Origin: Treponemataceae bacterium
Lineage (GTDB): Bacteria > Spirochaetota > Spirochaetia > Treponematales > Treponemataceae
DNA length: 41,497 bases
Direction: 5' to 3'
Assembly: GCA_024685655.1 (NCBI GenBank)
Contig: JAIKVO010000052.1
Coordinates: forward strand, 1-41,497
The translations under genes and the position numbers were made by a program. Below the pieces are notes generated by a model that did not search any database, was not told the DNA's origin, and worked only from the letters and a program-made list of their open reading frames with translations. Numbering within the stretch: the first letter of the stretch is position 1; every line of letters begins with the position of its first letter. This document shows, piece after piece, positions 28,691 through 39,348 of this stretch.

Positions 28691-28748
28691 AAAAAAAGAG
28701 CCAAGCGAGAAAACTCGACGCACCACTTTAAGGCAGCACTCTTGACTC
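28691..28748 (-). terminator. Possible terminator for minus-strand transcript
   Basis: Minus strand GAGTCAAG...CGAG-TTTT-CTCG-CTTGGCTC-TTTTTTT; outer 8-bp stem (one G-U), nested hairpin, T7 tract. Confidence 0.5.
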
Positions 28749-33426: not shown

Positions 33427-34314
33427 TTAACTAAGCTGTTTCGCCAGCTCTTGAATTTGCTCAATTGGAAGCTTCACACATTTTGCTATTATCTCCGGTG
33501 AAACATTCTCTTTTAGCAATTCTATAGCATCTTCCACAGCTTTTTTCTGCCTGCCTTCCGCCAGCCCCTCTTGTCTTGCGGCTTCTTTCATAGAAAGCTC
33601 GTCGGAGACATGCATCCAGTAGCGCGTCTCGTGATACCAGTTAAGCTCGTCCTGGCTGACGTTTTTCAAAACTGTGAAAGCCATTGCTATCCCCCTGTTA
33701 TGCTTCGCAAGTTCACTTATGTAATCCTGCTTTTCAGCATCAGATGCGTACAAGAAGAATTTACCCCACATTTCTGCAGGTGTCAATGAAGCAATGTCAT
33801 CGGGAAGCTTCGCGATTTTCGGCAGTTCCATGAAAATAACGTTCAGCGTCCGTGAGATTACGCGGCCGTCCTCGTTACGCAGGCAGTAATAGTTCACACA
33901 GTTTTTTTCTTCTGAATCAAAGACGAAGTTCAAAACCGAAATCTGGAAGACTTGCGGAATATCCTGCCATTTAAGGCCTTTTGGGGTGTAGTGGTTAAGG
34001 ACGTGCGCTGCATGATACTCCGCACGTTTGCCGTAATCGGCCTGGCTGTTACTTCCCTGCATTTCAACGTTCGCGATTTTACCATCGATTTTGCAGTTGA
34101 TGTCGAACTCGGCCTGCTTGTCGCCAACGGCTTCGCCAGAAAGCTCGTTGGGCTGGAGCACGACATCGGTGACAGGTTTCTGCAGAATGTCGGAAAGAAA
34201 ACAGGTAAGTGCCTGGTGCGCTTCCGAGGATTCGGTCGTGAAGAGTATCTTGAAAATCGGATCGACGCATGGGTTAAGAAGTGCGCCGGGATAAGGACGT
34301 AAAGTTTGTGCCAT
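33427..34314 (-). CDS. Rpn family recombination-promoting nuclease / PD-(D/E)XK nuclease family putative transposase
   Basis: LLNPCVDPIFKILFTTE...AEFDINCKIDGKIANVEMQ...YGKRAEYHAAHVLNHY motifs. Confidence 0.88.
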   Translation of the reverse strand: MAQTLRPYPGALLNPCVDPIFKILFTTESSEAHQALTCFLSDILQKPVTDVVLQPNELSGEAVGDKQAEFDINCKIDGKIANVEMQGSNSQADYGKRAEYHAAHVLNHYTPKGLKWQDIPQVFQISVLNFVFDSEEKNCVNYYCLRNEDGRVISRTLNVIFMELPKIAKLPDDIASLTPAEMWGKFFLYASDAEKQDYISELAKHNRGIAMAFTVLKNVSQDELNWYHETRYWMHVSDELSMKEAARQEGLAEGRQKKAVEDAIELLKENVSPEIIAKCVKLPIEQIQELAKQLS

Positions 34315-34424
34315 AAAAACTCCTGAAAAAAGCGTTCATAATTATTATTTGACAACGACAAAGAGTTTTTGACACTTTTTCTGAAAAAAATAAAAAAATT
34401 TTGCGTCCGATTACTGTGGGTTTA

Positions 34425-34650
34425 GTGCGCATTTTTAGCAAACAACTACATTCTTTATGATATTGCGTAGCTGGCAGGTCGCCTGTGTGGAAAGCATTGA
34501 CGAACACAGTGAGAAACTGGCTTTCCACACAGGATTTGTGCGGAGGTTGCTTTGCAACCGACTGCAATACCTTTTGAAAACAACGAACTTTGTTCGTTGA
34601 TGCCAGCGAGAGCAATATCATAAGAACATGTGTGTTAAAAATATGCGCAC
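34425..34650. mobile_element. TA-flanked inverted-repeat element with nested hairpins (MITE-like or structured RNA)
   Basis: Imperfect arms of about 50 bp: GTGCGCATTTTTAGC...TTCTTTATGATATTGC...GCTGGCA versus TGCCAGC...GCAATATCATAAGAA...TAAAAATATGCGCAC; TA at 34423-34424 and 34651-34652; inside: 14-bp perfect stem CCTGTGTGGAAAGC/GCTTTCCACACAGG, GGTTGC-ttt-GCAACC, CAACGAAC-ttt-GTTCGTTG. Confidence 0.75.
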
Positions 34651-34685
34651 TATTACTTTTCCATCTGCATAATTATCTTGTAAAC

Positions 34686-37600
34686 TTACTTACCAATCAC
34701 CCATGACTGCGATGAGTCCGGCAAATTGTTTATAAGCGTGCGCATATACGTCATCGTTTTCAGCAAGCTGGGTTTGGATCTGCCGTTCATTCCCGCAATT
34801 CCTCCAGTCTTATACACTGCCGATGCCGCAGACAGCAATCCCGGTTTACTGGAAAGCCGCTCCACAACATAATCAAGCTTAAGTTCGTTGAGATTGCTAA
34901 AAAGAGCATCTTTTTGCGAAGGTTGCAAACTAGAGCTTAACGTCCTGAGTGTCTTGAACATATCCCCGGCATTACGGAACTGTCGTTTCACAGGTGCTTT
35001 CATTATATTCTGCAAAGCATCACTTACAAGATTCATTGTAGTTTGCTCGTCTCTGAGAGGAGCTTCCTGCTTTTCGACTTTCTCATCCGGTTTTTTGCTG
35101 GCGATATTTTCAACGACTTCCGGAGCATGATTGTGTATCACAGAATCATGGGTTTCATGCTCTACAGGTTTTTCTTCAAATGCAGTATTATCCGAATCAG
35201 AATCAATCTCTGCACTATCGCGCATCATATCTTCCGAACCTTCAGGATTTTCTTCTTCAAGAACTTTTTCCACAGACTCCTCGGTGACATCCTCGTCAGA
35301 TGCCTCTTCTGGTATAAGCTCAGACTCTACTGGTTCCACATCTTCTTCCGCAAAAGGCTTTTCCTCATCAGATTCACCATCACCAAAAGAAGATAAGCCT
35401 GAAATATCGTCAAGAGCATTTTCTCCCTCTGAAGTGTCGTCTTCACCATTAAAAATGCCTTCACTGTCTGAACTGTCTTCTTCAGAGGCGGCTTTTTCGT
35501 CGAGAATATCTTCAATCGGCTCGCCTACACTGTCATAAGGATTTGGCTCCTGAACGGCGTCTAGAATATCTCCAGAATCAAGTCCTTCACCGGCTAGAGG
35601 AGGTTCCGATATATCAACTTCTTCCAACGGGGTATCCGGCAAAGCTTCGGACGACGGAATCTCCGACTGGTCAGAAGTTAGCGTATCCGGCAATATATCA
35701 GATTGTTCTGAAGGCGGCACATCAGGGTCGTCCTCAAAAGCGTTTTCCATAAGAGTGGGGCTTTCTTCCGGCATCGGAACAGGTTGCACCGGCGGCTTCA
35801 CAGTGGGCTGCTCAGGATATTGCGGCTGTGCCATCTGCGGTGTGAACATTGCAGGTTCCTGCCTTGGTGGCTGCGGTGGATACTGAGGTTGCATCGGATA
35901 TTGGGGATAGCGAACTGGTTCACGCCGATTTTCGGGTGCCTCTTCTTCCTCGAATTTATCTTCTTCAAACGGAGAACCAACTACATCAAGCATTTCATTT
36001 TGCTCAGAGGGAGAATACTTCGGTGTGTAGTTGTAGTCCAATGGATTGAATCCAGAATCATCACGAGAACTGGCAGAAAACTCAAACGGCATATCCTGAG
36101 GTATAAGCTTAGAAGTACCCAGTGTTTCTTTTCTGTCGTCATATTTCTCAGAGACAAAATCAACCGGAGACTCTTCCATTATCAGATTAGAATAATCACT
36201 GTCAGAATCTTCACCATCTTTATATTCAAGCTTCAAAAGCTCATCAAAATCTATTTTCTCAAACGAATCTATATCCTGACCAATCGAGTCGTCATCCGGC
36301 TTCTGATCATCAGACACAGCGAATTTCTCAAGTTTACTAACAGAATTCTCATACAGGCGGATTTTTTCCTGCAATTCCTCTGGAGAAGCTTGCTCCGTAT
36401 TTTCTGAGAGAAGCTCCGACATATCTGTCGTATCCTTTCTATTCGTGTCAACATGCGCGCCGACTCTGGATACAGCTTCTTCCAGCCGTGGATTTTCCAC
36501 ATCTTTTTCAAGAACTTTCTTAAAAACTTCCAGAGACTTCTCGTACTGCTTCTCTTCCTCATAAATATCACCCAGAAAGCATAAAGCCTCCGGATTATCA
36601 CCGCGTTTCTCCAGATATTTTTGCATATAATCTTCCGCATTCGCATAATCGCCCATGCGTTTGAACTGCATTGCCGCATCCCAAAGAAAATTTACAGAAC
36701 CCGGCTTAACTTCACATAAACGCTTGAAACATCCGTGAGCTTTGTCTATTTTGCCTGCACGGATAAAATACTGTGACAAAAGGTTCAGCATTTCAGGATC
36801 ATTCGGCGAAGAAGCTTTTTCTTGATTCAACAGTTCTCCTGCATCCTTAAGCTTTCCCTGATTTATAAGAAGCTGGATTTTTCTGTGCAACAAATCTTTT
36901 TCATTTGTATTAACAGCCTTCATGCGGTCAAGTAATCCGTAAGCCTCTTCAAACATATTCTGTTTTTCATAAACACGTTCAAGCCGTCCCATCACCGAAT
37001 AATCATTAGGACGTTTTTCGAGCACAGAACGGAAAATAGATTCTGCCTCGACATAATTTCCGCGTCTTACATGGAGCCTTCCCTGCGTAACTTCAAGATT
37101 TATATTCTCCGGATTTATTTTCAACCCCTGGGAAATAAGTTCCTGCGCCCCAGTATAATCCTGTTCGTGCATATATAGATCCGCAAGACCGTTCATAGCA
37201 TCCGGCCAGCCCGGCTTTGCCCTTAACGCATTCTCGAACGATTCACGGGCTTCCTTATATTTTCCCTGCGCTATGAAACTCAACGCAGAATTATAGTGAA
37301 GCACGGGATGGTTCTGGTCAACCTGAAGTCCTTTCCAATATGTTTGGAGCGCTTTTTTGTGATCACCACGCTTTGCTTGTATCGCACCAAGATGATTGTA
37401 CGCAAGCACATCGTTCGGATTCGTCTCGATCACAGATGTAAAGCATTCCGCAGCAGCATCGTATTCTTCCATGAGTTTGTACGTGAAACCCATATTATAT
37501 TTAACTTCGCTGCTGTCATGAATTTTTAGCGCACGTTCCAGTACTTTTATAGAATCCTGATATTTGCCAAGTCGTCTGAAAACGCCTCCAAGACTGTTCA

Positions 37601-37829
37601 AAGCCTCATAATTGGAAGAGTCGAGCCGAAGCACGCCAAGATACGCGCTTTCTGCTTTTTCGTCCTGACCAGCCTTTACGTAAGTCGAGCCGAGTTTCAG
37701 ATACAAATCCTTATTTGTAGGATCGTTTGCAAGAACTGTCCTGTAAAGACGAGCAGCCAGGGAAAAATCCCTGGCTAGAAGAGCGGAATCCGCCCTATTC
37801 AGAGTAAAATCGTTCTTATCATTGCCCAT
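34686..37829 (-). CDS. Large TPR-repeat protein with acidic low-complexity C-terminal half
   Basis: Repeated TPR units (YEALNSLGGVFRRLGKYQDSIKVLERAL...); Asp/Glu/Pro/Ser-rich second half; likely start MGNDKNDFTLNRAD at 37829. Confidence 0.85.
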   Translation of the reverse strand: MGNDKNDFTLNRADSALLARDFSLAARLYRTVLANDPTNKDLYLKLGSTYVKAGQDEKAESAYLGVLRLDSSNYEALNSLGGVFRRLGKYQDSIKVLERALKIHDSSEVKYNMGFTYKLMEEYDAAAECFTSVIETNPNDVLAYNHLGAIQAKRGDHKKALQTYWKGLQVDQNHPVLHYNSALSFIAQGKYKEARESFENALRAKPGWPDAMNGLADLYMHEQDYTGAQELISQGLKINPENINLEVTQGRLHVRRGNYVEAESIFRSVLEKRPNDYSVMGRLERVYEKQNMFEEAYGLLDRMKAVNTNEKDLLHRKIQLLINQGKLKDAGELLNQEKASSPNDPEMLNLLSQYFIRAGKIDKAHGCFKRLCEVKPGSVNFLWDAAMQFKRMGDYANAEDYMQKYLEKRGDNPEALCFLGDIYEEEKQYEKSLEVFKKVLEKDVENPRLEEAVSRVGAHVDTNRKDTTDMSELLSENTEQASPEELQEKIRLYENSVSKLEKFAVSDDQKPDDDSIGQDIDSFEKIDFDELLKLEYKDGEDSDSDYSNLIMEESPVDFVSEKYDDRKETLGTSKLIPQDMPFEFSASSRDDSGFNPLDYNYTPKYSPSEQNEMLDVVGSPFEEDKFEEEEAPENRREPVRYPQYPMQPQYPPQPPRQEPAMFTPQMAQPQYPEQPTVKPPVQPVPMPEESPTLMENAFEDDPDVPPSEQSDILPDTLTSDQSEIPSSEALPDTPLEEVDISEPPLAGEGLDSGDILDAVQEPNPYDSVGEPIEDILDEKAASEEDSSDSEGIFNGEDDTSEGENALDDISGLSSFGDGESDEEKPFAEEDVEPVESELIPEEASDEDVTEESVEKVLEEENPEGSEDMMRDSAEIDSDSDNTAFEEKPVEHETHDSVIHNHAPEVVENIASKKPDEKVEKQEAPLRDEQTTMNLVSDALQNIMKAPVKRQFRNAGDMFKTLRTLSSSLQPSQKDALFSNLNELKLDYVVERLSSKPGLLSAASAVYKTGGIAGMNGRSKPSLLKTMTYMRTLINNLPDSSQSWVIGK

Positions 37830-37836
37830 AATCCAC

Positions 37837-39348
37837 TCACTTTTTTTGCAATTGCCGCCGGAGAGGTCTAGCATACACTTCAGGTGACAGCTGACCTATT
37901 ATTTCCGGCGAAGAGGCAGAAACTCCTGCCACTGCAAAATAGTATATTTTTCCATTCTCAAGTCCGGTAATCCTGATGCTGTTATCTTTTCCCACATATA
38001 TAGGAGAGCTTCCCTCCGTCGCTTCGTTCCCCAAATATTCACCGGGACGTTTTCCATAATAAAGCATATAACCACCGGTATTGCTCGTTTTGTTACTAGC
38101 AGTTCCTGCCCATGAAAGGTCCACATATCCATCGCCAGCTACAGCCTTCAGATCATATGGGATTACAGGCGGCTCATGCTCCTTGTATGTCACCGTGAAT
38201 TCAGAGATAGAAGGAGTAACCGAACACGCTCCGTCCGGATACAAATCTGCGGCAAGCTGGAACCAAACGCCATCCACAGCGTTGAGAGTATCGCCTGGCG
38301 TAAAAGTTTTCCATTCAGGCTGAGTTTCTGTCCAGTCGAACGGAGATTCAGACGACCGTACGTAATACTCTATCCAGGTTTGCGCAGGAACAGTCGCGAG
38401 AGCGTCAACAGAAAGTACTTCAGCTCCGTTCTTGCCGAGCGTAAACAAATCTGTCTCAAATCTGCCGCCTTCATCAGGATAAAGAAAAGCCACATTTTCA
38501 TTGTTGTCGCTGTTCCGGCGGATACAGAAATTATCAACCCAGCCTGTGTAAGACGGACAAATTTCAATAGAAGCCGGAACACCTAAATGTGCCTCGTAAA
38601 TAGTTCCGCGTTCATAACCTGTGTTAGTTATAAAAAGAATATCCTCGGTGACACCGTTCATTTTGTATTCAACCATGCCAGTATCATCATCGAATGTAAG
38701 CTCATGGTGCGACCATTTTCCCGGAATCAGGATAGATGCTCCCATCAGTGTGTAAACAGAATTTTCTTCCGTCATTGTGTCGAAGACATTCGTGAAGTTC
38801 CAGCGCATTCGGCTTCCATATACAGATGCAGTGATGCTTTGATAAAGAGAGTAACTTTCCAAGTTTCGGGATGAACGCCATGAGAATATTATCTCACCGT
38901 TGCCAGATGAAAGCGGACAAAGCCAGAATTCAATTGAGAAAGAATCTGTAAGCCCCTGCCGTCCGAAAAGTGAATTCGGATTTCCTGTCAAATGGATTCC
39001 GGTAGTTTCCCCTCTTGAAAGCGCAGCTTTTTCACCACGAGCAGAATTGTCACCCACAAAAACTTCAGCAGAATCGACAGTGTAGTTGCCTGTATCATCA
39101 ACGACCGCACCGTTTTCAAAAGTAAGCAGTAAATCAGTGGAATCATCAGGATTTATTGTCTGCTCCGAAAGCATATAGCTGTCATAACCGTATCTTCCAG
39201 TGCCGAGCGTTACGTTCTGTGTATATGAAACACCTTTCCATCCCTGTTTTCCGCCAAGTACGAGCGTCTGCTCACCAAATAACGGCTGAATTAAGCATGA
39301 GAACAGTAGACAAAAAGCTGAAAAAAAATATATTTGTTTTCTAACCAT
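37837..39348 (-). CDS. Secreted LamG-like / fibronectin type III-like protein
   Basis: Signal peptide MVRKQIYFFSAFCLLFSCLIQPLFG; LTDSFSIEFWLCPLSSGNGEIIFSW concanavalin/LamG-like; PYDLKAVAGDGYVDLSWAGT...YYFAVAGV Fn3-like. Confidence 0.75.
   Translation of the reverse strand: MVRKQIYFFSAFCLLFSCLIQPLFGEQTLVLGGKQGWKGVSYTQNVTLGTGRYGYDSYMLSEQTINPDDSTDLLLTFENGAVVDDTGNYTVDSAEVFVGDNSARGEKAALSRGETTGIHLTGNPNSLFGRQGLTDSFSIEFWLCPLSSGNGEIIFSWRSSRNLESYSLYQSITASVYGSRMRWNFTNVFDTMTEENSVYTLMGASILIPGKWSHHELTFDDDTGMVEYKMNGVTEDILFITNTGYERGTIYEAHLGVPASIEICPSYTGWVDNFCIRRNSDNNENVAFLYPDEGGRFETDLFTLGKNGAEVLSVDALATVPAQTWIEYYVRSSESPFDWTETQPEWKTFTPGDTLNAVDGVWFQLAADLYPDGACSVTPSISEFTVTYKEHEPPVIPYDLKAVAGDGYVDLSWAGTASNKTSNTGGYMLYYGKRPGEYLGNEATEGSSPIYVGKDNSIRITGLENGKIYYFAVAGVSASSPEIIGQLSPEVYARPLRRQLQKK

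Follow-up and report, generated by a model that had tools for sequence, protein, structure and literature searches.

Our analyses show that a palindromic stretch of DNA from a gut Treponema belongs to a real repeat family, absent from Rfam and from the literature searched, that behaves as mobile and carries the evolutionary signature of a structured RNA. The window (the whole stretch analysed here, 41,497 nt of contig JAIKVO010000052.1) comes from a 3.16 Mb assembly that is 88% complete, hereafter G000. Its positions 34425-34650 are probably, though far from certainly, one copy of a mobile hairpin element that is non-autonomous and structure-dependent, its arms being kept complementary by copying from one arm to the other together with selection. 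Stems that vary in matched pairs around fixed loops look like those of a mobile element under folding pressure. The family is unusual in its reversed conservation pattern, with loops kept and stems and ends free, and in the locus-specific palindrome around each copy.

Region 34425-34650 folds at -99 kcal/mol on the plus strand, versus -56.3 +/- 4.4 for shuffled sequences (z = -9.6; 0 of 200 shuffles folded as well), and the minus strand gives z = -9.2. A sequence-only reading had described a 226-bp element with branched internal hairpins and TA on both outer sides, lying between two minus-strand genes, and every feature that it named is present: the ends read TA|GTGCGCAT…ATGCGCAC|TA, the outer arms TAGTGCGCATTTTT/AAATATGCGCACTA are located at 34423-34436/34639-34652, the 14-bp stem CCTGTGTGGAAAGC at 34482-34495/34520-34533, and both short internal hairpins (GGTTGC-ttt-GCAACC and CAACGAAC-ttt-GTTCGTTG) occur. 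Its extent has to be revised, as the unit recurring elsewhere is the inner core (~34462-34611) and not the full 226 bp. The parts of the window copy are the following.

34423..34424, no strand: TA dinucleotide outside the left outer arm, read from the sequence
34425..34454, plus strand: left outer arm (GTGCGCATTTTTAGC...), locus-specific, imperfectly complementary to 34624-34650
34455..34466, plus strand: P1 left strand TTATGATATTGC, outer pairs locus-specific, inner TTGC conserved, from its P1 match at 34612-34623 and the flank pairing of the family
34467..34469, plus strand: conserved unpaired GTA on the left of the internal loop (GTAG when the first base of stem 1 is counted), from the alignment
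34470..34476, plus strand: stem 1 left strand GCTGGCA, pairing with 34601-34607 in the fold
34482..34495, plus strand: stem 2 left strand CCTGTGTGGAAAGC, pairing with 34520-34533, from the window sequence and family covariation
34497..34518, plus strand: conserved apical motif TTGACGAACACAGTGAGAAACT, family form TTGA-[CGARCGNAGYGAG]-GAAC, from the alignment
34520..34533, plus strand: stem 2 right strand
34534..34599, plus strand: extra module between the right strands of stems 2 and 1, made of the two hairpins GGTTGC-ttt-GCAACC and CAACGAAC-ttt-GTTCGTTG
34601..34607, plus strand: stem 1 right strand TGCCAGC, from the fold
34608..34611, plus strand: unpaired, conserved GAGA (GARA across the family) on the right of the internal loop, from the alignment
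34612..34623, plus strand: P1 right strand GCAATATCATAA
34624..34650, plus strand: right outer arm (...AAAATATGCGCAC)
34651..34652, no strand: TA dinucleotide outside the right outer arm, read from the sequence

From the core outwards, the outer arms are 77% identical across 44 aligned columns. The window copy belongs to type 1 and carries the extra two-hairpin module, a separate 66-bp part (34534-34599) absent from the other own-genome copies inspected. Its left neighbour (33427-34314, minus strand) carries the Pfam domain PDDEXK_2 and its right neighbour (34686-37874, minus strand) codes for a TPR protein; a mechanical minus-strand ORF of 115 aa that runs across the element (34274-34621) looks spurious. 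A comparison of 34425-34650 with Rfam 15 gave no match, even with thresholds relaxed. Elsewhere in the window, a described structured motif, the DUF3800-VI RNA (Rfam RF02915, 55.7 bits), lies at 28698-28748 on the minus strand.

The DNA search of the own genome that the sequence-only reading had proposed returned 20 other matches, nearly all of them to the inner part (query 36-111), and a single-copy structured RNA is ruled out by these multiple copies. With a first covariance model, built from ten copies, 43 matches were obtained in G000; since one locus is matched on both strands and another is split or truncated, they represent ~41 loci. G002 and G001, the two nearest congeners, gave 29 and 5 matches, and four other species of the genus gave zero. 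A second covariance model detected members in 15 of 247 genomes of Treponemataceae, from 4 of 21 genera, and in an even draw of 199 genomes of the phylum our own genome was the only carrier. As far as sampled, the element is confined to Treponemataceae. Another genus of the family includes a species, G161, with 43 copies of a distinct sequence type, which is an independent amplification. The copies are dispersed and intergenic, have been amplified independently in several species, and are in some cases nested in other hairpins. A phage or plasmid origin was dropped for want of a match. In G087, a metagenome-assembled genome (MAG) placed in another genus, L272 and L283 hold copies that seem identical to those at G000 loci L032 and L043, as a result of either recent transfer or contamination of the bin.

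The part conserved between copies is an inner core of ~85 nt, built up from the outside inwards of the closing stem P1, an internal loop (GTA:GARA), stem 1 (~7 bp), a short gap, stem 2 (~14 bp) and a TTGA-[CGARCGNAGYGAG]-GAAC tip. P1 varies between copies, ending in ~TTGC/GCAA in the main type, and the stems fall into at least three sequence types. The loop motifs are kept in genus g12 (G017) and appear in a modified form in genus g4. The TTGA..GAAC tip may consist of tandem G.A pairs around a GNA triloop. Type 3 copies have AGCACGAAGTGCT instead, and the orthologous copies L035/L065 differ by a compensatory change from CGAACGAAGTGAG to AGCACGAAGTGCT; this swap fits a fully paired tip. The stem polarity is TTTT-stem…stem-AAAA, and an intrinsic terminator was ruled out since no T-run follows the stem.

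The compensatory changes in the stems are borne out by covariation. In an alignment of 57 distinct rows, fitted to a covariance model and including seven weak reverse-strand matches, 93.0% of cells are paired, 538 are double-change cells (144.5 +/- 11.6 when shuffled), and the covariation score is 0.675, versus 0.195 when shuffled and 0.06-0.12 after sliding the partners by 1-3 columns. Given the model fitting and the weak matches, the flanks were tested independently of the model, in copies chosen by loop motifs alone. Of the first 9 pairs outside the core, 80.6% are Watson-Crick, a share that falls to 40.2 +/- 2.9% once each core is given the right flank of another copy (n = 36, where a few copies may duplicate a locus present in two stretches and one, L023 on the plus strand, probably matches by chance); for the 17 copies recovered by BLAST the values are 79.7% and 40.1%. 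Flank complementarity goes on outwards, more weakly, to ~60 nt, and in three copies (L045, L052, L055) the outer arms at 36-50 nt are perfect over 13 nt. Nearly identical cores sit between unrelated flanks, which implies that the core did not carry its outer flanks along unchanged. The orthologous copies L047/L239 differ by a compensatory change of GCC..GGC to GAC..GTC. Among the young copies of G161, the third P1 pair is A-T in 15, G-C in 12 and T-A in 3, with no mispaired intermediates, as coupled changes would give, although several master copies could explain the pattern too.

Orthologous loci without the element were found in G002 or G001 for L003, L009, L020, L045, L048 and L050, while at the element-free L003, L006, L020, L048 and L050 neither of the complementary flanks was found in the relative. 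No clean filled and empty pair with a precise junction was obtained between G000 and G002 or G001, and as these relatives are ~75-95% identical around the sites, with intergenic DNA turned over, we do not claim a precise insertion junction. The family shows multiple copies, orthologous loci that lack the element and compensatory changes, if no clean junction. At L009, the G002 allele consists of a hairpin alone (CCAGACGG-ACGCGAGC-CCGTCTGG), whose loop is the site of the insert in G000, with the near loop copy CTCGCATCC inverted on the far side. At L045, the 13-nt outer arm CAGAGTAGTCAAT spans the stop codon of the neighbouring gene, and the orthologues in G001 and G002 have a similar gene end and lack the inverted arm copy downstream. 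The idea that the flanks are, as a rule, pre-existing host palindromes was not confirmed, the bare hairpin having been seen in a relative solely at L009. For the window locus, neither the element nor the DNA of the PDDEXK_2 gene was matched in G002, and the surrounding DNA differs too. That gene (33427-34314) is of the Rpn type and has several paralogues in G000 (L329, L332, L335). A tie between it and the element was rejected, since its homologues do not lie beside other copies and the paralogue loci lack the element.

Two processes fit the locus-specific arms: insertion that writes an inverted copy of one flank, or later template switching across the long hairpin. Template switching is the more economical of the two, and has been documented both to generate hairpins and to preserve them, through coupled compensatory changes (PMC8794818). 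That insertion itself writes an inverted copy of the host flank beyond the element, making each copy the centre of a locus-specific palindrome, we consider unlikely; such writing could proceed by foldback-primed synthesis from the hairpin or by mobilisation via a folded RNA. To our knowledge, transposition by inverted copying of the host flank has no description for bacterial elements.

The mobile hairpin element that we favour would depend on an enzyme acting in trans, which would recognise the folded core (the GTA/GARA loop and the TTGA..GAAC tip) on single-stranded nucleic acid and insert copies into intergenic DNA, at least sometimes at existing hairpins at the 3' ends of genes and, in one subfamily, with a preference for TA. 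After insertion, template switching during replication across the long hairpin would copy one arm onto the other, keeping the stems paired and extending the pairing into the host flanks. Transcribed copies would be further selected as folded plus-strand RNA, and such selection would explain both the excess of G.T over A.C mispairs and the sense orientation of the older copies behind genes. No mobilising enzyme was found in G000, where PF01797, PF00078 and PF13358 are absent from the 88% complete assembly.

If the fold were relevant only as DNA, G.T and A.C mispairs would be expected to be equally common. Their ratio is 35:16 in type 1, 36:3 in types 2/3 and 8:0 in G017 (two misregistered columns excluded), a subgroup bias that is partly exposed to the priors of the covariance model, and 20:7 in the model-free flank test, where the bias is weaker. 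This excess suggests selection for folding as RNA, on the plus strand. Copies of types 2/3 are sense to the upstream gene in 14 of 15 cases versus 12 of 24 for type 1 (Fisher p = 0.006), and copies in other genera, out of sample, in 10 of 11 (8 of 9 minus the two G087 copies that resemble G000 loci), evidence that is suggestive only, because the split by type was made post hoc and the genes were called with a simple codon-usage script. The young copies of G161 have no orientation bias (16:13). Together, these data are suggestive of insertion both ways followed by retention of the copies that work, or are harmless, in mRNA 3' regions, and the lack of bias among recent copies implies that RNA selection may concern retained copies only. 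The structured RNA that the sequence-only reading had offered as an alternative gains weight from the fixed loops, the covarying stems and the G.T excess. In its stricter form, in which the copies are functional cis-acting or small RNAs (3'-UTR hairpins serving mRNA stability or processing) that spread by ordinary duplication and are not mobile, this alternative seems to us quite unlikely. The fixed unpaired motifs, the covarying stems, the mispair excess and the position of copies of types 2/3 and of other genera, in sense and 25-200 nt behind genes, all agree with it, but it sits badly with an element that has 43 matches in one species and is missing from four congeners, with mostly non-orthologous sites and with recent copies in both orientations, and neither a terminator T-run nor a common class of neighbour genes was seen.

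An alternative that we rate as rather unlikely is a conventional MITE of a TA-targeting DNA transposon, of the IS630/Tc1-mariner type or other, whose internal palindromes are neutral baggage. Like such MITEs, the family is non-autonomous, has a length of 160-190 bp and, in the window copy and the G161 subfamily, bears terminal inverted repeats (TIRs) with TA outside. The whole element is visible in G161, with 16-bp TIRs, common to the copies, near GGTCGAATGTCGGGTT at 45-59 nt from the core; TA lies outside 19 of 28 recognisable ends (6.4% background), and at both ends in 8 of the 14 copies, out of 30, in which both TIRs are recognisable, a TIR that itself starts with TA being indistinguishable from a TA duplication. 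In genus g4 (144 kb), every GAATRTCG…CGAYATTC pair <=260 bp apart fits the length and position of the element. In view of the G161 pattern, the TA|GTGCGCAT…ATGCGCAC|TA of the window may mark real ends. Against a MITE of this kind, outer arms in our own genus are not common to copies and only 2 of 41 copies have good TA-flanked ones, DDE_3 (PF13358) is absent from the nine incomplete assemblies searched (G000, G001, G002, G003-G006, G017 and G161), and fixed loops with structured, covarying stems are not what neutral baggage predicts. The earlier proposal of a MITE consequently holds as far as the multicopy, intergenic and palindromic nature, the empty orthologous loci and the ~16-bp TA-flanked terminal repeats of G161 are concerned; its link to IS630/Tc1-mariner transposons is not supported, given the missing DDE_3 and the scarcity of TA-flanked arms.

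The same holds for the peel-and-paste fold that it had also entertained, which is unsupported in the own assembly: a Y1 transposase (PF01797) is missing from G000 and G001, with one each in G002 and the copy-free G003. Very unlikely, too, is a REP/REPIN-type element whose mobility would come from a Y1 HUH transposase (RAYT) with GTAG at the hairpin foot as its recognition site: the RAYT gene is missing from G000, and several copies in other genera carry GGAA or GTAA in place of GTAG. The likeness is nonetheless considerable: the family is short, extragenic, palindromic and of high copy number, has GTAG (GCGTAG) at the 5' foot of stem 1 in most own-genus copies, as in canonical REPs (PMC6006769), and shows compensatory changes in its internal hairpins, as REPINs likewise do (PMC3116915). 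However, REPINs have conserved ends and a variable middle, whereas the Treponema element has a conserved core and loops and locus-specific ends. SINE-like mobilisation by a reverse transcriptase (PF00078) was rejected, as this domain has no match in G000 and its presence is uncorrelated with copies, being found in G001, G002 and G017 and also in the copy-free G003 and G004.

The family is REPIN- or MITE-like in lifestyle but lacks a tested membership feature of each. Our searches for Treponema palindromic repeats or for the motif returned nothing on point in the literature. Rickettsia palindromic elements are also palindromic, ~150 bp long and present as multiple families per genome (PMC10969869), but are noted for in-frame insertion in genes, whereas the Treponema copies are intergenic. 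The repetitive (double) hairpin elements of mitochondria are likewise dispersed intergenic hairpins whose mobility mechanism is unknown; they belong to another domain of life, and in sponges their loops lack sequence conservation, whereas in Treponema loops are kept and stems vary (PMC2800124). With Rfam structured RNAs the element shares fixed loops and covarying stems, but it matches no Rfam 15 family.

Short palindromic repeats are common in bacteria, and how they move and why their stems stay paired are usually open questions. Here, identical loops occur on entirely different stems, in dozens of copies across genera, each within a palindrome of local DNA, so that the effects of structural selection and of arm-to-arm copying could be told apart in this system. 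It also allows the question of how covarying hairpins arise to be tested in natural strains. The family is, moreover, a warning: covariation by itself usually counts as proof of a functional RNA, yet it may accompany a mobile repeat.

Several related repeats deserve mention. L038 (G000:C47) and L071 (G002:C13) hold an element within an element (GCGTAG...[element]...CGAAAGC), conserved in both species. Extra hairpin modules occur within the core at L006, L009, L014, L015, L016 and L048, as a ~63-nt module (GTCGCTGCGCTCCGGTAGCTATAGGAAAG...GCGCAAACTGGCTATCG) in stem 2 and as tip extensions. A larger, second palindromic repeat family (...CACAAACAGCGTGT...GCGTAGC...) is found throughout G000 and G002 (L003 1279-1429 and L013; matches in G002 at L101, L122, L232 and L238). 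In the GTDB collection, 68 stretches contain the tip motif TTGACGARCGNAGYGAGGAAC, versus an estimated ~2 by chance, mostly outside Treponema, where it is generally the 3' tail of a ~80-bp hairpin repeat of termite-gut Actinobacteria, sometimes in tandem arrays of 79-82 bp (L136, L140, L151, L159 and L199 in termite-gut Propionibacteriaceae and Micrococcales MAGs; L133, L157 and L172 in Bacteroidales); common descent of the actinobacterial repeat and the Treponema element is unproven. Finally, a 31-nt part of the extra module of the window copy has one further occurrence in G000, beside a tRNA-like sequence (L021 ~1460-1640, G000:C192). The module relative there (GCGGAGG..hairpin..CCGACTGCAATACCTTTT..CAACGAAC..GTTCGTTG) directly follows the tRNA-like sequence, whose 3' end, CCTGTCGTTCCGA, is repeated downstream in the manner of an attachment site.
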